DNA of 64,000 nucleotides from Methanothrix sp. (GTDB lineage Archaea; Halobacteriota; Methanosarcinia; Methanotrichales; Methanotrichaceae). Both the position numbers and the translations under genes were made by a program. Under the pieces are notes generated by a model, which was given only the letters and a program-made list of their open reading frames with translations, was not told where the DNA came from and searched no databases. The stretch covers positions 1-64,000 of the forward strand of contig NZ_JASFYM010000011.1 of assembly GCF_030055635.1 (NCBI RefSeq), given 5' to 3'. Below, in pieces: positions 7,274 through 18,609 of the stretch. Every line of letters begins with the position of its first letter. The stretch's first letter is position 1.

Positions 7274-9962
7274 GTTTCAATCCTTGTTTTCCTGGAACTC
7301 GCTCTTCGACCCAAAAAATCCGTCTGATTTGAGTTTCTAACGATTGTTTCAATCCTTGTTTTCCTGGAACTCGCTCTTCGACCTCCAAGGTCAATCGCTC
7401 CATCTCCAAAGTCGTTTTGTTTCAATCCTTGTTTTCCTGGAACTCGCTCTTCGACTCGATTACTATATCGATGGAGAAGAATTGCTCAGGGGTTTCAATC
7501 CTTGTTTTCCTGGAACTCGCTCTTCGACTTTGCAATAGTTGAATTCGAAAACAGAATGTATTGTAGATGTTTCAATCCTTGTTTTCCTGGAACTCGCTCT
7601 TCGACTTTGTGTGGGGGTTTCTGGTTCAATTCCGGAAATCCCCGTTTCAATCCTTGTTTTCCTGGAACTCGCTCTTCGACATTTTTCATAGAAACTAATT
7701 AATTTATTAAAATATGGTTTCAATCCTTGTTTTCCTGGAACTCGCTCTTCGACTTGGCCAACCTTCACCAGGCCGTCTCACAGTCATCTGGTTTCAATCC
7801 TTGTTTTCCTGGAACTCGCTCTTCGACACTCGCACCAAGGAAGTAGCGCGGAAGTGCCCATGGTTTCAATCCTTGTTTTCCTGGAACTCGCTCTTCGACC
7901 TTTCTCACTCCTGGCGATTCATATCGCCACAAGAGTTTCAATCCTTGTTTTCCTGGAACTCGCTCTTCGACTTCGCGCGAAAAAAAAAGAGAATACATAT
8001 TTTAAGGTTTCAATCCTTGTTTTCCTGGAACTCGCTCTTCGACACGGTGCTTTGGTCGTTAAGTTGCACCCAGATATACACTCGTTTCAATCCTTGTTTT
8101 CCTGGAACTCGCTCTTCGACCGCGCCCGGGCTGCAGGATACCCCTTTCGCGCCCGGTGGAGGGTTTCAATCCTTGTTTTCCTGGAACTCGCTCTTCGACC
8201 ACGTATATCTCCGCGAGTTCCTCGCCAGAGAAAGTTTCAATCCTTGTTTTCCTGGAACTCGCTCTTCGACCCTTACCTCGTCTATTTTCCAGACGGGGTA
8301 CACGCCACGTTTCAATCCTTGTTTTCCTGGAACTCGCTCTTCGACACTGAGCTGCTTGATGCCATAGAATCACAAACCGAGTTTCAATCCTTGTTTTCCT
8401 GGAACTCGCTCTTCGACCAGATTTGGTATGCCAAGCTCGGCCCTTACTCGGTCGTTTCAATCCTTGTTTTCCTGGAACTCGCTCTTCGACGCGAGCTCAA
8501 GATTTTAACCGAGCTGCTTGATGCTAGTTTCAATCCTTGTTTTCCTGGAACTCGCTCTTCGACATGACATCATCCACCGCCGCTCTTTTTTGTGAGTGTT
8601 TCAATCCTTGTTTTCCTGGAACTCGCTCTTCGACAGTATGCGTCGTTGTACTCAGTCCTTCAAAATGTTTGTTTCAATCCTTGTTTTCCTGGAACTCGCT
8701 CTTCGACAGCAAGAAGTACGGTCATTTCCGGGAGTGTTCCGTGGGTTTCAATCCTTGTTTTCCTGGAACTCGCTCTTCGACAATACGGGCACTTCAAGGA
8801 GTGTTCCGTGGTAACGGGTTTCAATCCTTGTTTTCCTGGAACTCGCTCTTCGACAACCCGGGGCGTGGAGGTCGAGAAAAATGATAGTAGAGTTTCAATC
8901 CTTGTTTTCCTGGAACTCGCTCTTCGACAACCCGGGGCGTGGAGGTCGAGAAAAATGATAGTAGAGTTTCAATCCTTGTTTTCCTGGAACTCGCTCTTCG
9001 ACCGAGCAGCTTGAAGAGATAAAGATACTTAAAGCTGTGGTTTCAATCCTTGTTTTCCTGGAACTCGCTCTTCGACAATCCGGAATGTCCGGCCCAAATG
9101 GGCGCTGGATATGTTTCAATCCTTGTTTTCCTGGAACTCGCTCTTCGACTTTACTCTCACAAGCGAAGTAGCTCGGAAATGCCCATGGTTTCAATCCTTG
9201 TTTTCCTGGAACTCGCTCTTCGACGGTCTCGCTCTGCAACATATGATACCTGCGCATATTGTTTCAATCCTTGTTTTCCTGGAACTCGCTCTTCGACCTG
9301 CCCGCTGGGGTTCCACTCCAACGGGCAACCGGGTTTCAATCCTTGTTTTCCTGGAACTCGCTCTTCGACGCGAGAAGGCAATACGTGAGAAATATACCAG
9401 CGAGGGTTTCAATCCTTGTTTTCCTGGAACTCGCTCTTCGACACTAAAGAGAGAACTTTACGAGCAGCTAGAAGAAAGTTTCAATCCTTGTTTTCCTGGA
9501 ACTCGCTCTTCGACCAGTTCAATCGTCCGAGTTACCATCCCGTACCTAGGACGTTTCAATCCTTGTTTTCCTGGAACTCGCTCTTCGACCAGTGGACAAC
9601 TACCTACGGGGGTCTAGCGATAACGAGGGGTTTCAATCCTTGTTTTCCTGGAACTCGCTCTTCGACCTCGGTCGTAACGGTGACAGTGCCATGGAGATCT
9701 CTGTGTTTCAATCCTTGTTTTCCTGGAACTCGCTCTTCGACCCTCGACCTACCAAGAAACGCACCGGGACTTTGGAGTTTCAATCCTTGTTTTCCTGGAA
9801 CTCGCTCTTCGACGCGAAGCTTGGGAGTTGTTGAGGCCCTACGGTAGGTTCGGTTTCAATCCTTGTTTTCCTGGAACTCGCTCTTCGACTGCCGATCAGT
9901 TGTATCGTGTCGTGTGATGTCCAGAGTTTCAATCCTTGTTTTCCTGGAACTCGCTCTTCGAC
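7274..9962 (-). CRISPR. CRISPR array, 37 repeats and 36 spacers
   Basis: The 37-bp repeat begins GTTTCAATCCTTG and ends CTCGCTCTTCGAC on the plus strand. I counted 37 copies and saw no variant. Spacers are 34-42 bases, mostly 35-38. Read on the minus strand the repeat ends in ATTGAAAC, the usual 8-base crRNA handle of type I-A/I-B/III systems, so the array is transcribed leftwards and the leader is on the right, next to cas6. By that polarity the newest spacers lie near 9925 and the oldest near 7311. Spacers 8855-8891 and 8929-8965 are identical, and several others form related groups. All open frames inside the array are artefacts of the repeat. Confidence 0.99.
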
Positions 9963-10064
9963 AGCGGGGATTTTTCGTCCTTTTTGGCAGACCTCCCCTC
10001 GAAGGGCTCCTTTTCAGGGGGGGTATCCGGCATGAGTGGAATTTATTGGACCCTTTATAAATTC
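9963..10064 (-). promoter_or_regulatory. Probable CRISPR leader and its TATA box
   Basis: On the minus strand GAATTTATAAAG (10053-10064) is a good archaeal TATA box. Transcription would start near 10030, giving a leader of about 68 bases before the first repeat at 9962. The box lies within the last codons of cas6, so cas operon read-through and a dedicated promoter could both feed the array. Confidence 0.55.
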
Positions 10065-10766
10065 ATTCCGCTCCGTCACCCCCGGCTCTATCTGCTCTCT
10101 TCGCCTGCCGTTCACAACCCCCACGGCCCCAAAGCCTCTTGAAACAGACTTCCCCAGACCCATCAGATCCGGAATGTGAAAGTTCGCCAGAAACTCACAT
10201 CTTATGCCTGTGACCATCACACCCTTTAATGTGCAGATCTCGTCTCTCACCCTTCCAAGATCAAGACGGATCCGCTCATCTACAGTATACCCGAGACCCT
10301 TCGCAGCAGAGAGTATGTTCCCGACCAGGATCCTTCTCAGAAGCTCCCTCCTCTCATCCCAGGAAGATGCATCCACATAACGCCCGTAGTTCTCCTGGTT
10401 GAGAGCCAGCCACGGAGTGACAAACCTGTACGCATGAAGCTCGCCAGCACACCCAAACCTCTCCCTTCTCAGGCATATGTGCCTCTCAACAACAGAATAG
10501 CTCCGATCCCCCAGCCGTATCTCGCCGAACTTATCGTACAGGTCCTTGAGAATGTCTGCACCCTCATTTATCCCCAGGATGACCGGCACACCCCTTATGA
10601 TCTTGTACTGGATGAGAGGATACCTGTAGATCAGCCTGTCAGTGAAATGATGGTGCAGCAGCATCTGGTCATTGAAGCTCGTGGCGAAGAAGCCGCGCAG
10701 CTTCGCCGCATCCTCCCGGACCGGCGAATCAGAGCGCAACCTCAGCCGCAGAATCCTGAGATCCAT
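10014..10766 (-). CDS. cas6: Cas6, pre-crRNA processing endoribonuclease
   Basis: A 250-residue RAMP-family nuclease that cuts the repeat transcript to leave the 8-base 5' handle. It has the KLRGFF segment near the N-terminus, the HHHFTDRLIYRYPLIQYK region typical of this Cas6 group, and a C-terminal glycine-rich loop (GLGKSVSRGFGAVG). It is the last gene of the cas operon, 6 bases after cas3 and immediately before the array leader. The final residues overlap the probable leader promoter. Confidence 0.92.
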   Translation of the reverse strand: MDLRILRLRLRSDSPVREDAAKLRGFFATSFNDQMLLHHHFTDRLIYRYPLIQYKIIRGVPVILGINEGADILKDLYDKFGEIRLGDRSYSVVERHICLRRERFGCAGELHAYRFVTPWLALNQENYGRYVDASSWDERRELLRRILVGNILSAAKGLGYTVDERIRLDLGRVRDEICTLKGVMVTGIRCEFLANFHIPDLMGLGKSVSRGFGAVGVVNGRRREQIEPGVTERNEFIKGPINSTHAGYPP

Positions 10767-10772
10767 AGCACC

Positions 10773-13187
10773 TCAGATTATCATCGAGCCCTCGCCGGCA
10801 TCCTCCACCTTGAACCCTGTCTTACGATCATAGTATTGGGGGAGCTCATCCATCGATATGTAGCCGAGGCCCTGATCCTCCATGAGGAGGTTTTTGGCTA
10901 TCCTCCTGGGGACGGAGATCACGTAATCGCTCAGCGCGTTCCTCATGCTCAGATACCTCCTTCTCCTCTCCCAGATATCCCTCTCTGATCTCAGATCCCT
11001 GTACATCCTCCAGACCTCCGCAGCCCTCTCATCAACCTCCACAAACACATCCACCCTGGGCTCGTCCTCCTCTATGAGCCTGAAACTCTCCCCGAGATCA
11101 CCAAACTCCAGGCCTGACAGCATTTTCATACACTCCCTCGAGGTCTCATCGCTCATCCCGCTCCGCAGCGCCCTGAAGTACCTGCTGCTGAGCTCCAGTA
11201 TCTCCCTCTCCTCTATGCATCTCCCGCACGACCGGAGCACATCAAGGGTTTTCGAGATCAGAAAGCCATCGTAGATGTACTTCCAGAGCTCCATTCTCTC
11301 ATCCCTGAGAACGACCACCGAGACACGCCCCCTCTCCCTGGAGAGGTTCCTGTTGCACCTTCCAGCAACCTGGTTTATCGAGTCCAGGGGTGCGAGATCT
11401 CTGAACACTACATCAGCATCGATATCAACACCCGCCTCTATGAGCTGCGTGCTCACCGTGACCTTCCTGCGCTCTCCCCTCTCCTCCCTGATCCTGCGTA
11501 TGCGGTCCATCCGGTCCCTGGGGACGACATGTGTTGAGAGGTAGAAGAGATCTGTATCATCCAGATCGAGCGCTTCTATCGCTCTATAAACGTTCCTTGC
11601 TGATCGTATCGTGTTCATCACGATCAGGAAATCCCTATCCGGATTACCGTGAAGCTCTCCCGCCAGAAGCCCCTCGAAATCCTCAAGGCGCATTGGAGCA
11701 TCGATCATTGGATGCAACTCGATCCTGTTGAGCGCCCTGAAGTACCGCTCCTTGTTGCTCACAGCCTCCCCGATCTCGCCGTTCTCCTCGTTGAAGATGA
11801 GCGGCTGGGTCGCGGTTACTAGTATCAGATAGCTGTTGAACCTCTCGCAGAGCGTTCTCAGAGCATCACGCATCAGAAGCCAGTACCTGTGGGGCACCGC
11901 CTGGACCTCATCCAGAATTATTATGGAGTTCGCAAGCCTGCTGAACTTCCTGATTCTCCTGTTCCTGTTCGAGAAGATCGTGTGGAACAGCTGCCAGAAT
12001 GTAGTCACCACGATCTCCGAGTTCCACCCCTCAAGGAGCAGAAGGCTCACGTCAGGCTCGTACTCCTCCTCTCCCTTTCTGTATGCGATATCTGAGAGAT
12101 GATGGTGCTTCAGAAGCACTCCTGAGTCAGCCCTGATGCCTGCGCTCTCCAGCACATCCTCGAAGACATCGCATGTCTGATCGATGATGCTCAGAAACGG
12201 CAGCGCGTAGATTATCCTGGGCATGATCCCGCATTGGTCCATCAGCCTGCTCCGGAGCCGCAGCGCCATCGCCAGGGATGTGAGCGTCTTGCCTGTGCCC
12301 GTGGGAACGTTCAGCGATATTATCCTGCTGTTCAAATCCCATACAGAGATCCGGCCGACAGCATCATTGTATATCTCGTTCCTCATGCCGTTGATGCCAT
12401 CCCTGCTCTCAGAGAACCCGCGCGCCTCCCTGTACCTGTCCACGAGATCTGAGGGAATCTCCACCCTGCGCAGGTCCACTCCCTCCAGCCCCGCATCGGT
12501 CTTGTCCGCATCCAGGAGCGCGGAGTAGAGAAGCTGAGCAACGAAGTACAGCAGGATGTCATTTCTCTTGCTGAGAATCCTGACGAAGTGCTTCTCATGC
12601 CTCACATCCTTCAGGGCATCTCTGAGGATGTAAGCAATCAGATGATCTAAATCCAAATCGACCACATCGCCGAGAAGGGCTCTGAGCATCTCCCTGCATT
12701 CTTTTCTATCAATCCTGGAGATCTGCTCCTCCAAAACAGGCAGAATTCTCTCCCGTTCAGCGTAGATCTCCGAGATCTCGTCCAGCGCGTTCGTCAGATC
12801 TCCGTGATGCCGCCTCACGGCGATGAACGAGATCAGAGGAAGGGCTCCTGATGTATCGCTTTTTCCCTTCTCTAAATATTTTCTCACAACTGCATACGTG
12901 AAGAGCGATGATAGCAGGCCGTGCTTTGTGGTCTCCCTCGATCTCAGGATCTGCTTCTTCCTCTCATCCATCTCCCCCAGATACTCCTGGAAGAACCCGG
13001 TCGCCTTCCCGAGATCGTGGGTCGCTCCGATGATGTATGCGACATCCTCCAGAACCCTCACGTTATCGAGGTTCCGCGCGCTTTCAGCCACAGTCCCTCT
13101 GCACATCTCCCCGACTTTTCTGAGGTGATCCACAAGTAGCTTATCAGGATGTGATCTAAGCTTAAATGAAAACGATCCGCTCGCCAT
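10773..13187 (-). CDS. cas3: Cas3, HD nuclease-helicase
   Basis: A single polypeptide of about 804 residues carrying both type I effector activities. The N-terminal HD nuclease has GATHDLGK near residue 57. The superfamily 2 helicase has Walker A NVPTGTGKT near 295, DEVQ near 427, and motif VI with QVAGRCNRN. Cas3 is recruited by Cascade and degrades target DNA 3' to 5'. The open frame permits an ATG at 13205, but the ATG at 13187 has GGAG eight or nine bases upstream and is preferred. It overlaps the end of cas5 by 26 bases, suggesting translational coupling. Confidence 0.94.
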   Translation of the reverse strand: MASGSFSFKLRSHPDKLLVDHLRKVGEMCRGTVAESARNLDNVRVLEDVAYIIGATHDLGKATGFFQEYLGEMDERKKQILRSRETTKHGLLSSLFTYAVVRKYLEKGKSDTSGALPLISFIAVRRHHGDLTNALDEISEIYAERERILPVLEEQISRIDRKECREMLRALLGDVVDLDLDHLIAYILRDALKDVRHEKHFVRILSKRNDILLYFVAQLLYSALLDADKTDAGLEGVDLRRVEIPSDLVDRYREARGFSESRDGINGMRNEIYNDAVGRISVWDLNSRIISLNVPTGTGKTLTSLAMALRLRSRLMDQCGIMPRIIYALPFLSIIDQTCDVFEDVLESAGIRADSGVLLKHHHLSDIAYRKGEEEYEPDVSLLLLEGWNSEIVVTTFWQLFHTIFSNRNRRIRKFSRLANSIIILDEVQAVPHRYWLLMRDALRTLCERFNSYLILVTATQPLIFNEENGEIGEAVSNKERYFRALNRIELHPMIDAPMRLEDFEGLLAGELHGNPDRDFLIVMNTIRSARNVYRAIEALDLDDTDLFYLSTHVVPRDRMDRIRRIREERGERRKVTVSTQLIEAGVDIDADVVFRDLAPLDSINQVAGRCNRNLSRERGRVSVVVLRDERMELWKYIYDGFLISKTLDVLRSCGRCIEEREILELSSRYFRALRSGMSDETSRECMKMLSGLEFGDLGESFRLIEEDEPRVDVFVEVDERAAEVWRMYRDLRSERDIWERRRRYLSMRNALSDYVISVPRRIAKNLLMEDQGLGYISMDELPQYYDRKTGFKVEDAGEGSMII

Positions 13188-13863
13188 TCTCGAGCTCCCA
13201 GGCATCCCTTGTTCTGGCCTTTATGCTCCCGCCGTTCCTCTCGTAGAGTATCTCGCTGTAATCCATGACCTCCCGCCCCTCGCCCATCACACATGGCATC
13301 ACCTCAGAGAAGTACTCCCGCCCCTCCTCGAACTCCGGCGGCTCCAGAAGTGATCTCAGAGGCACAACGCTGTTTATCTCCTGGAATTCATCGCCACATC
13401 TTCTCATGCTCCACTCACCGACAAATTTGAAGTTGCAGACCAGCTGGCTCAGGCCCAGGCACGGGGTGTAAACGCACCTGTGCTCCTCGAGCAGCTCCCT
13501 GAGATCCCTGAAGAGACGTCCGTCAGAGTGCCCGAAGTATATCCTGTACACCGGATCCTTCAGGAACTCAAACCTGATCTGAGTTCTGTTGATGATCCTT
13601 TGCATGCTTTTCTTGGTGTCGATCAGGTTCTCGCCTATACGCACCTTCTTCACAGGCTCCAGGATTCTGCATCCTATGCTCGCCCGATCCCTGAAAAAGT
13701 ATCTGAAGTACTCATCCTTGCTGAGCCCTGCTATGGCTCCCACGATCCCCGATATCGCTGTTCTAGGAGGAAATGAGTACGTGAGGGGGGATGTTGTGGT
13801 GTATATCTTCCTGAAGTGCGCGTAATCCCCCCACACATCGAAGACCAAGACTCTATCCTGCAT
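13162..13863 (-). CDS. cas5: Cas5b, Cascade subunit
   Basis: A 233-residue RAMP protein of the Cas5 type that caps the 5' handle of the crRNA in Cascade. The N-terminal VFDVWGDYAHFRK strand and the SYSFPPRTAISGIVGAI segment are diagnostic of Cas5 of subtype I-B. It lies 21 bases after cas7 and overlaps cas3. Confidence 0.92.
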   Translation of the reverse strand: MQDRVLVFDVWGDYAHFRKIYTTTSPLTYSFPPRTAISGIVGAIAGLSKDEYFRYFFRDRASIGCRILEPVKKVRIGENLIDTKKSMQRIINRTQIRFEFLKDPVYRIYFGHSDGRLFRDLRELLEEHRCVYTPCLGLSQLVCNFKFVGEWSMRRCGDEFQEINSVVPLRSLLEPPEFEEGREYFSEVMPCVMGEGREVMDYSEILYERNGGSIKARTRDAWELENGERIVFI

Positions 13864-13884
13864 CGAAGACCTTCTGGAGACCTT

Positions 13885-14802
13885 CTAGAATGCAATCGGC
13901 CGTACCTCTATGCCAGTCGCTTCCTTCAGCATCTCCATCGAGAACTCAGATCCGTCCACGATGAACCTGAGCCGTCTGTCGAAGCAGAGCTCAATATCCC
14001 TTATCGAGCCGTTCTCAGCCTTGAGCCTGCTCACAAGCTCGGAGACGTCGAGGCAGAAATCCTCAGGCCCTCTGATCGCCTCATGCTGCATCTCCGATAC
14101 CAGCTTCACCATCCTGTCGAGATCCCCGATGTGGTAATTCTGCTTGCTGTAGTTGACCTTGAGAAGCAGCCTCGGCACCTGGCCAGCTTTCGTTCTGGAT
14201 ATCAGGCTCTTCGTCCCGTTCCACATGCCCTCGAGGAGAAGCTTCACATCATCCTCTGTGAGGTTTGTATGCTTTGCAGCATTCTCGTTTATTATGCCGT
14301 AGAAGAGTATCAGCGAGTACGGAAGAACATATTCCTCCCGGAATGTCGCCTGCTTCGATTTTTCCCCGGAAGCGAACGCTCCAGTGCCCTTTATGTGCTT
14401 CAGCGTTACTCTGTGGAGCGAGCGCCCCATCTTGAACTGCACAGGGCCTGTGTAGGTTATCGAGTCCTCCTTCAGTGGAATCACGCCGCCGAACAGCCTT
14501 ATATCTATGCACTCCCTCAGAATCCTTTCTGCATCTTCTCCGAAATCCTTCGCCCGCATCTTTCCGTCCTGGATGTACCTGTTCTCCGCATCGTAGACTA
14601 TCTCCCTCACGAATATCTCAAGCCCCTTGAAGTCGTGGAGGTAATCCCTTATGGTCCTCTTGAGCCGCACGTCGGTTACCAGGTTTACCCCTGTCTCCTC
14701 GTCTATGCGCGGCTTGTTCTCGTCCATCGGATCCCCATTCGGATTCCCGTCTCTTATATCGTAGATGAACAGCAGCTCGGATCTGTTTCCAACAGTGGTC
14801 AT
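13885..14802 (-). CDS. cas7: Cas7b (Csh2), Cascade backbone subunit
   Basis: A 305-residue Csh2-family protein. The N-terminal FIYDIRDGNPNGDP motif is the family signature. Multiple copies line the crRNA guide in the type I-B Cascade. Its ATG overlaps the stop codon of cas8b (ATGA), which usually means coupled translation. Confidence 0.94.
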   Translation of the reverse strand: MTTVGNRSELLFIYDIRDGNPNGDPMDENKPRIDEETGVNLVTDVRLKRTIRDYLHDFKGLEIFVREIVYDAENRYIQDGKMRAKDFGEDAERILRECIDIRLFGGVIPLKEDSITYTGPVQFKMGRSLHRVTLKHIKGTGAFASGEKSKQATFREEYVLPYSLILFYGIINENAAKHTNLTEDDVKLLLEGMWNGTKSLISRTKAGQVPRLLLKVNYSKQNYHIGDLDRMVKLVSEMQHEAIRGPEDFCLDVSELVSRLKAENGSIRDIELCFDRRLRFIVDGSEFSMEMLKEATGIEVRPIAF

Positions 14803-16655
14803 GCTGTTTCCTCCATCTCCTTTTCCTCAATCTCCTTATCCACCTTGAAGATCTTGTGGAGGTTCATGCCGAGCACGAAGTAGAAGCTCAGCTCATCGTC
14901 CGTCTCCTTCCACCTCTGCCCTGAAAGAACGAAATGCTTCGCGATGATCTCCTCGAGCTCCCTGTAGTAGTTCTTCCCGTACTCTTCGAGCTTGTTCTGT
15001 ATCTCCGGAAGAAGCCTTTTGATCATAGCCTCGTTCAGCCTGAGCCCGTGCAGCTTTGTGTAGAACGGCCTCGCCTTCTTCTCCGTCCACTGGATGTTCA
15101 GAAGCTTCTGCGCAAGCACCCCTTCCAGAAACGTCGCCTTCTTCGCATCGCTGTCGAAGAATTCTCTGTTCGCCTCGAAGAACCTCTCGATCCTCTCATC
15201 CAGAGGAAGCGCTTCAAGCTCCTCTCTTTTGAGAATAATTCCTGACATTTTGCCTACCTCAAGATCCTTCAGAAGATTCAGCTCCCTCAGATAGTGAAGA
15301 AGCAGAAATCCGTTGAGCGTGTTCATCTGCGTGGACTGTTCATGCACGAAATCATCTCTGATTCTCTTCATGATGAAGGAGATCAGCAGATGCCGATCCA
15401 CGGCCCTCCCCACGAATATACTGTTAACGATCTCCAGGAACATCTTATCGTGAGTTACGCTTCCTGATTCCCTGGGGAAGAACCGTCTCAGCACGCCGAA
15501 ATCAAACCGCATCTCGATTTTCTTGTCTTTCTCATCGGAGAGCACCATCTCATTGTATATGCCGAAGAGACCCTCGACCCTCTCCTTGGCCTCGAAGAGC
15601 CTTCTCAGCCTTGACGGTAGAATGCCATCGATGTGGAGAAGTATCCTGTACGCGGAGTTATCCTTCCTGTAAAACAGGAGGCTGTTGCTGAAGAAGTCCT
15701 TCTGATCCTTGACCACATCCAGGATATCATCCTCATCATCGGTTATGCGATTCCTGGTCTTACCGCTCATCTTCAGCTCTTTCTTCATGCCGCTCAGGAT
15801 ATCGAGTATCTCCTTGTAGTCATCGCCGATGACGAGCTTGGGTATGAGAAGGTATCTGAAACCATAGAAGCTGAAATCCAGGTTCTCCTCGATGTACTTC
15901 TTTCCAGCATCGAGGTTTGTCGCGCAGTTGAAGCAGACAGGCGTGTTCTTCCATGCATCCGACTGTCTGAATCCGCCGGCTATGAATCCTGGCTTGTCGA
16001 AGGTGTGGAACGGCCACGGTATGGCATAAGCGTAAACCTCATCCTTCTGCTCCTTACACACAGAGCAGAGAGCATCGATCCCCCTGGACTCGCCGCCGTA
16101 TTTCATGAAGTATCGATCGCAGCTCTTTTTGAGGAGAGCGTTTCTGAAAACCGCGTAGTCCGCCAGGTATCTCATATCACCGTCCTTCAGAACTCCGATG
16201 GTTATTATGCAGTTCTCTGTGGATTTGAGATGCGATCGCTTCTCCTTGAGATCCTCGAGTATTTTATCTTTGTTCGAGAATATCACATCCTTCATCCTCT
16301 CCAGCGTGGTGCTCTCCTCCACGCTGATGCTTGAATGATCGGCAGTCTCAAACCATCTCAGAAACTTTCTGTTGAATGTTGTCTCGATGTCCTTTGCTAT
16401 CTTGCATGTCGGGGTGGCATCGGTGGCGTTCCCCTTCTTCCCCTTGTAGAGATACCTCCTGTAATCCTTGAGCTCCTCCAGCTCCACGCCCCTGTAAGAG
16501 AAGTCTCCGTTCCTATCCTCGAGTGTGACAACAAGGGCATGTCTGTATCTGCCGTTGCTGTTTGGATTCTCCACAATGGCATCCAGGAGATCCGCACACC
16601 CGCTCTGAGCATGCTCTCCAATTCTTGATACAGCCTCTATCACGTGTATCACCAT
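14799..16655 (-). CDS. cas8b: Cas8b (Csh1/TM1802-type), Cascade large subunit
   Basis: A 618-residue large subunit. Two CxxC pairs, CSVC near residue 195 and CFNC near 240, form the zinc-finger region typical of TM1802-type Cas8b. The family recognises the PAM and recruits Cas3. The sequence is otherwise divergent, as is usual for large subunits. Position between cas4 and cas7 and the order of the operon support subtype I-B. The start is 3 bases after the cas4 stop. Confidence 0.88.
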   Translation of the reverse strand: MVIHVIEAVSRIGEHAQSGCADLLDAIVENPNSNGRYRHALVVTLEDRNGDFSYRGVELEELKDYRRYLYKGKKGNATDATPTCKIAKDIETTFNRKFLRWFETADHSSISVEESTTLERMKDVIFSNKDKILEDLKEKRSHLKSTENCIITIGVLKDGDMRYLADYAVFRNALLKKSCDRYFMKYGGESRGIDALCSVCKEQKDEVYAYAIPWPFHTFDKPGFIAGGFRQSDAWKNTPVCFNCATNLDAGKKYIEENLDFSFYGFRYLLIPKLVIGDDYKEILDILSGMKKELKMSGKTRNRITDDEDDILDVVKDQKDFFSNSLLFYRKDNSAYRILLHIDGILPSRLRRLFEAKERVEGLFGIYNEMVLSDEKDKKIEMRFDFGVLRRFFPRESGSVTHDKMFLEIVNSIFVGRAVDRHLLISFIMKRIRDDFVHEQSTQMNTLNGFLLLHYLRELNLLKDLEVGKMSGIILKREELEALPLDERIERFFEANREFFDSDAKKATFLEGVLAQKLLNIQWTEKKARPFYTKLHGLRLNEAMIKRLLPEIQNKLEEYGKNYYRELEEIIAKHFVLSGQRWKETDDELSFYFVLGMNLHKIFKVDKEIEEKEMEETA

Positions 16656-16658
16656 GCA

Positions 16659-17234
16659 TCAGTCACATATGTTTCTGTACGTGCAGTCCACGCACCTGGC
16701 CTTCTGTTTCGTCCCCTCCGGATAGTAACCGTACTGAACTGTTCTAAGTATCTCGTTTACTGTATCGATAGCAGCATCATAATCTTTTTGGCGGAAGATC
16801 ACTTCCTCCACGTGGTGGTTGCTGCGGGTGTAGCATATGTACCCCCGGTTCACAGGAACTTCAAAGTGCTCCATTATCAGCAGCCCGTAAAGAGCGAGCT
16901 GGTACCTGTGCGTTCTGTGAACCACACCGCTGTATTCAGCGTACTTGTAATCCATGGGGGCAGCTGTGCCGTCATCGAGAAAGAGCACCTCATCCACCTC
17001 TCCCTTTATCCGGTACCTGCGGGATGTCAGATAGACGGAGACCTCCTTTCTGACGCACTTGAGCCTCTTTCTCACGTAGCTGGTGTTGACCTTCTCACGG
17101 CTCTCGTGAAGCTCCCTGCCCCTCAGGACCTTGTAGTACCTCTCCTCCCTCTGTGGGATGTTGAGACAGTGCATGAAGAATATGAACCTGGGGCAGAATA
17201 GGTACTCGATGACATCCGAGACTGTTATGAACAC
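16659..17234 (-). CDS. cas4: Cas4, adaptation exonuclease
   Basis: A 191-residue RecB-like PD-(D/E)xK nuclease with a 4Fe-4S cluster. The N-terminal cysteine (Cys14) and the C-terminal CVDCTYRNIC cluster are present, and the nuclease core shows GEVDEV followed by DYKYAE. Cas4 trims prespacers and selects PAM and orientation. It lies downstream of cas2. Confidence 0.93.
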   Translation of the reverse strand: MFITVSDVIEYLFCPRFIFFMHCLNIPQREERYYKVLRGRELHESREKVNTSYVRKRLKCVRKEVSVYLTSRRYRIKGEVDEVLFLDDGTAAPMDYKYAEYSGVVHRTHRYQLALYGLLIMEHFEVPVNRGYICYTRSNHHVEEVIFRQKDYDAAIDTVNEILRTVQYGYYPEGTKQKARCVDCTYRNICD

Positions 17235-17273
17235 ATCCTCATCGAGCGATTTCTCGATAAAAGAGACCTCCTT

Positions 17274-18609
<1,336 letters not shown>

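Follow-up and report, generated by a model that had tools for sequence, protein, structure and literature searches.

Two diverged spacers in a Methanothrix type I-B CRISPR array point to repeated capture of one foreign coding sequence at one PAM position

The window, the whole stretch of 64,000 nucleotides analysed here, comes from an archaeal genome (Methanothrix sp.) of 1.76 Mb that is 99.75% complete, and it carries a CRISPR array with an adjoining cas locus (Table 1). The array comprises 36 spacers, with spacers 8 and 26 at the coordinates given in the preliminary description, and 37 identical repeats of 37 nt; no Rfam match falls within it. Judged by PADLOC profile matches, the cas locus is a complete type I-B gene set, in which the effector genes cas8b, cas7b, cas5b, cas3 and cas6 are accompanied by cas1, cas2 and cas4. 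The flank to the right of the last repeat (AGCGGSGATTTTTCGT...TTTATAAATT) is conserved beside the arrays of sister genomes, one of which (G046) consists of one contig 1,879,471 bp long, whereas the left flank shows no conservation beside those arrays. We therefore take the right side to be the leader, which holds a TATA-box-like TTTATAAA at 10054-10061, and the minus strand to be the crRNA strand. In agreement with this leader position, the reverse complement of the repeat ends in ATTGAAAC, the crRNA 5' handle, a motif documented in PMC8482600. With the leader on the right and the handle on the minus strand, the seed of every spacer lies at its plus-strand 3' end. The effector set, the adaptation genes, the handle and a PAM on the 5' side of the protospacer in crRNA sense all conform to type I-B, the PAM side having been read from three spacer overlaps and from three protospacers of G046 spacers. 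A second array with the same repeat occurs in the same genome (L007 on contig C20 and L008 on contig C29) and is probably split over two contig ends, with its leader end on C20. A lone degenerate repeat-like sequence (TCCCTGCTTTCCTGGAACTCGCTCTTCGAC) also lies outside any array, on contig C19 (L101, 9520-9640).

Table 1. Features of the CRISPR-Cas locus, in window coordinates.
Feature	Position	Strand	Remarks
CRISPR array	7274..9962	- (transcribed)	37 repeats, 36 spacers
Spacer 8	7828..7862	-	35 nt, older of pair; minus strand encodes HGHFRATSLVR from seed end
Spacer 15	8346..8380	+	overlap with spacer 17 shows synonymous changes (TELLDA)
Spacer 17	8491..8526	+	pairs with spacer 15; PAM-side flank, read from spacer 15, is CTA
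Spacer 20	8708..8744	+	pairs with spacer 21 (YGHFRECSV / YGHFKECSV); flank PAM TTA
Spacer 21	8782..8817	+	pairs with spacer 20, offset 6 nt further along
Spacers 22 and 23 with intervening repeat	8855..8965		exact tandem duplication
Spacer 24	9003..9039	+	overlaps spacer 30 (EQLEE, synonymous)
Spacer 26	9150..9187	-	38 nt, newer of pair; minus strand encodes HGHFRATSLVRV
Spacer 30	9443..9477	+	pairs with spacer 24; flank PAM TTA
Leader	9963..10069	-	adjoins last repeat; kept in sister genomes
Type I-B cas genes	10014..18609	-	PADLOC profile matches
cas6	10014-10766	-	PADLOC, Cas6 E 1.3e-77
cas3	10773-13205	-	PADLOC, Cas3b E 1.4e-228
cas5b	13162-13863	-	PADLOC, Cas5b E 2.8e-79
cas7b	13885-14802	-	PADLOC, Cas7b E 7.3e-84
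cas8b	14799-16655	-	PADLOC, Cas8b E 1.9e-167
cas4	16659-17234	-	PADLOC; adaptation gene adjoining locus
cas2	17274-17621	-	PADLOC; adaptation gene adjoining locus
cas1	17539-18609	-	PADLOC; adaptation gene adjoining locus

Apart from exact copies, no two spacers in the array resemble each other as closely as spacers 8 and 26. They align without gaps and flush at their plus-strand 3' ends, as first described, with 29 of 35 positions identical and six differences; the ungapped score is 21.2, against a maximum of 12 among dinucleotide shuffles. The 3 nt by which spacer 26 exceeds spacer 8 lie at the non-seed end. That the flush end is the seed end, as the preliminary description also held, agrees with the leader, the handle and the YTA PAM described below. 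Counted from this end, the two spacers are identical at positions 1-8 and differ at positions 9, 15, 24, 25, 27 and 31.

In a minus-strand frame both spacers encode HGHFRATSLVR, and all five of the changed codons are synonymous, including CGA/AGA for Arg and TTG/CTT for Leu. The probability that six random substitutions would all be synonymous is 6e-4 in this frame and 1.5e-3 in any frame, the second being the corrected value for a frame picked after inspecting six. The preliminary description had instead read a shared EVARKCPW on the plus strand. The two differences that it placed inside that peptide, GCG/GCT and AAG/AAA, are indeed synonymous, but the W codon (TGG) is completed by a final G from the repeat, and the overlap spans 35 nt rather than 24. 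Over the full overlap the plus frame reads TRTKEVARKCP versus TLTSEVARKCP; of the five codons that change, three are synonymous and two give radical replacements (R/L and K/S), as against no such replacement in the minus frame. Because the wobble positions coincide in the plus and minus frames, the plus frame gave the impression of being partly synonymous. Furthermore, most GTDB matches to the EVARKCP pattern come from bacteria and lie in antisense or non-coding frames. The coding peptide had thus been assigned to the wrong strand, and we consider it very unlikely that the same two captures were made from a plus-strand gene encoding EVARKCPW.

Could one of these spacers have arisen from the other by duplication within the array, followed by mutation? 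Such duplication does occur: spacers 22 and 23 are an example, as is a three-spacer block in G046 (41-43 = 52-54, L027). These known duplicates are exact, however, and the repeats show 0 changes in 1369 nt of the window array, nor is any repeat changed in the main sister arrays, whereas spacers 8 and 26 differ at 17% of sites. They are also of unequal length, their neighbouring spacers are unrelated, and their six differences are all synonymous in one frame. Duplication is thus highly improbable, as the preliminary description had argued. Spacers 22 and 23 contain GGAGGT...ATG, which resembles a gene start.

Three further same-strand related pairs are present in the array (15/17, 20/21 and 24/30), each with a largely synonymous frame, where 0 were expected in 20 shuffles. 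A pairing of unrelated spacers by chance, for which nothing speaks beyond the short length of spacers, is practically negligible given these additional pairs and a score for spacers 8 and 26 far above the shuffles. In the sister genome G045 there is likewise a flush same-site pair (C2_36/50), encoding VVAEIQ[RK]RDGRRR, and a weaker flush pair (C4_2/20). We also observed that spacer 35 (9814-9852) and a spacer-like contig end from another species (L029, G043:C101) have WE..RPYGRF in common at the protein level, with little DNA identity, which would represent cross-species memory of one protein family.

When two overlapping spacers are offset, one of them displays the flank of the other, and this was used to derive the PAM. 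In the window there are three such offset pairs, with flanks of TTA, CTA and TTA. Three G046 spacers match contig L099 of the sister genome G044, the match being perfect for two of them and carrying 2 mismatches over 37 positions for the third, and the PAMs at these protospacers are TTA, TTA and CTA; the density of YTA in L099 is 0.0095. The overlaps thus suggest that the PAM is 5'-YTA, and the three sister-genome protospacers confirm this motif at the sequence level. The PAM position of one sister spacer, which matches with two mismatches, reads GTA, and two overlap pairs in sister genomes give the flanks TTG and CCA; the sister genomes may therefore tolerate a less strict motif than YTA. A YTA PAM is predicted at the protospacers of spacers 8 and 26; a YTA codon ahead of HGHFRATSLVR would read Leu, leaving the frame open. 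The preliminary description's view that both captures were made at the same PAM position is borne out by the flush seed ends, with the YTA motif itself drawn from other targets.

Searches of viral contigs, phages, plasmids, GTDB genomes and relatives revealed no protospacer of spacer 8 or spacer 26; the source of the two is presumably a virus or plasmid. Pattern scans of viral contigs returned no match for EVARKCPW, the peptide for which the preliminary description had suggested such a search, nor for EVARKCP, KYGHF[RK]ECSV, ELKILTELLDA, HGHFRATSLVR or WE..RPYGRF. A match to HGHFRATSL in L086, apparently a bacterial phage contig of 65% GC, lies in a frame that overlaps other ORFs and was put down to chance. 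Among 394 genomes of the phylum, HGHFRATSL was found only in spacers 8 and 26 themselves. The 38 EVARKCP matches in GTDB, none from a methanogen or methanogen virus, were mostly EVASKCP in short or antisense frames of Chloroflexi and Actinobacteria. A concatenated-peptide search of viral contigs and phages confirmed nothing, and comparison of the whole array with phages and plasmids gave repeat-like or weak matches only. Against 50 genomes of the family, the best outside match was one of 21 nt between spacer 24 and a gene for a periplasmic-type protein of a relative, which we judged to be chance. At the protein level, matches of the window spacers to newly found viral contigs were not above the null.

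Contig C11 of G045 (54.7 kb; L108, L109 and L111) encodes a terminase, a portal protein, baseplate J, an MCM helicase, an anaerobic ribonucleotide reductase (NrdD), a thymidylate synthase and a Mu F-like head protein fused to an ADP-ribosyltransferase domain. Its terminase, portal, baseplate and MCM genes identify it, on gene content, as a head-tailed virus or provirus hosted by a sister Methanothrix-like species. In G044, L099 on contig C6, which carries NrdD with an intein together with thymidylate synthase, and L110 on contig C98 are ~80% identical to the C11 virus across the region from NrdD to thymidylate synthase; contigs C6 and C98 have 141 identical bases in common. This relative of the C11 virus is targeted by spacers from two other species. 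Two matches appear only after translation: G046 spacer 30 with the NrdD of L099 (GYVQAISGWNE/GYLQAVSGWNE), and spacer 57 of the G045 C2 array with L108 (CEQCNRSGPFKID/CLGCDRAGPFKID). The window spacers do not match C11, and the pair 8/26 therefore documents a different target.

Taken together, we conclude with a probability of about 0.86 that spacers 8 and 26 were captured separately, and at the same PAM position, from versions of a single coding sequence that had diverged. The preliminary description's proposal of independent capture from diverged relatives of a gene under purifying selection therefore holds, with the peptide moved to the minus strand. Two co-existing relatives, or one lineage sampled at two times, would fit the diverged versions equally. 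With the leader on the right, spacer 8 is the older of the two; it would have been captured first, and spacer 26 would have been taken 18 acquisitions afterwards. Purifying selection on the foreign protein would have limited the differences to synonymous sites. Because these differences fall only outside the first eight seed-end positions, the old crRNA may have kept its ability to bind the new variant, and the eight matching bases would presumably let it engage that variant, for interference or for priming.

In primed adaptation by type I systems, an old spacer with an intact seed and outer mismatches is followed by a newer spacer from a related target, and spacers 8 and 26 show the same layout of seed and mismatches. 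It is therefore conceivable that the crRNA of spacer 8 bound the mismatched variant and that the adaptation machinery re-acquired at the same PAM, updating the memory. The strand bias of related pairs across arrays, 9 same-strand versus 1 opposite with two hairpin-containing G046 pairs omitted from the count, also points in this direction. However, the interval of 17 spacers shows no sign of immediate priming, and same-site pairs show no clear excess: three of eight overlapping pairs are flush, against an expected fraction of 0.43-0.52 from PAM density alone. Same-site capture thus appears no commoner than PAM density predicts, and no special same-site mechanism is needed. Overlapping pairs are denser here than in the sister arrays (4/595 versus 5/9031, P 0.0014), an effect that a small target genome would equally give; this density would fit either an effective target of ~2-24 kb, provided that one lineage supplied most of the spacers, or capture hot spots. 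We consider priming an unlikely origin for the pair, and we also consider it unlikely that the array refreshes old memories, with partly matching spacers guiding capture of the drifted version of the same or an overlapping site. As two captures from diverged relatives, the pair is an ordinary, well-supported arms-race record of repeated capture.

The window system can be set beside two that are better known. It resembles the type I-B system of Methanosarcina in its cas set, the ATTGAAAC handle and the PAM side, and its PAM is near-identical: that of Methanosarcina is TTA (PMC8482600), and that of the window, judging from few targets, also accepts CTA. In Sulfolobales arrays, spacers match variant or diverged viruses, and a single locus can contain several matches, some partial and others perfect, to genetic elements that are related (reviewed in PMC4390879, which cites Shah et al. 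2009). Both there and here, related elements are recorded within one locus; unlike in the Sulfolobales, two spacers in one array here record the same site, and the foreign sequence is known from the spacers alone.

Diverged spacer pairs of this kind are short alignments of unseen viruses or plasmids, and from them the coding strand, the selection acting on the foreign protein and the PAM can be read even when no foreign genome is available. Combined with the PAM, the peptides HGHFRATSLVR, YGHF[RK]ECSV and WE..RPYGRF provide signatures for recognising viruses of Methanothrix, a major methane producer, in metagenomes. If the refreshing of old memories were true, it would mean that type I-B archaea update their immunity in a sequence-specific way.
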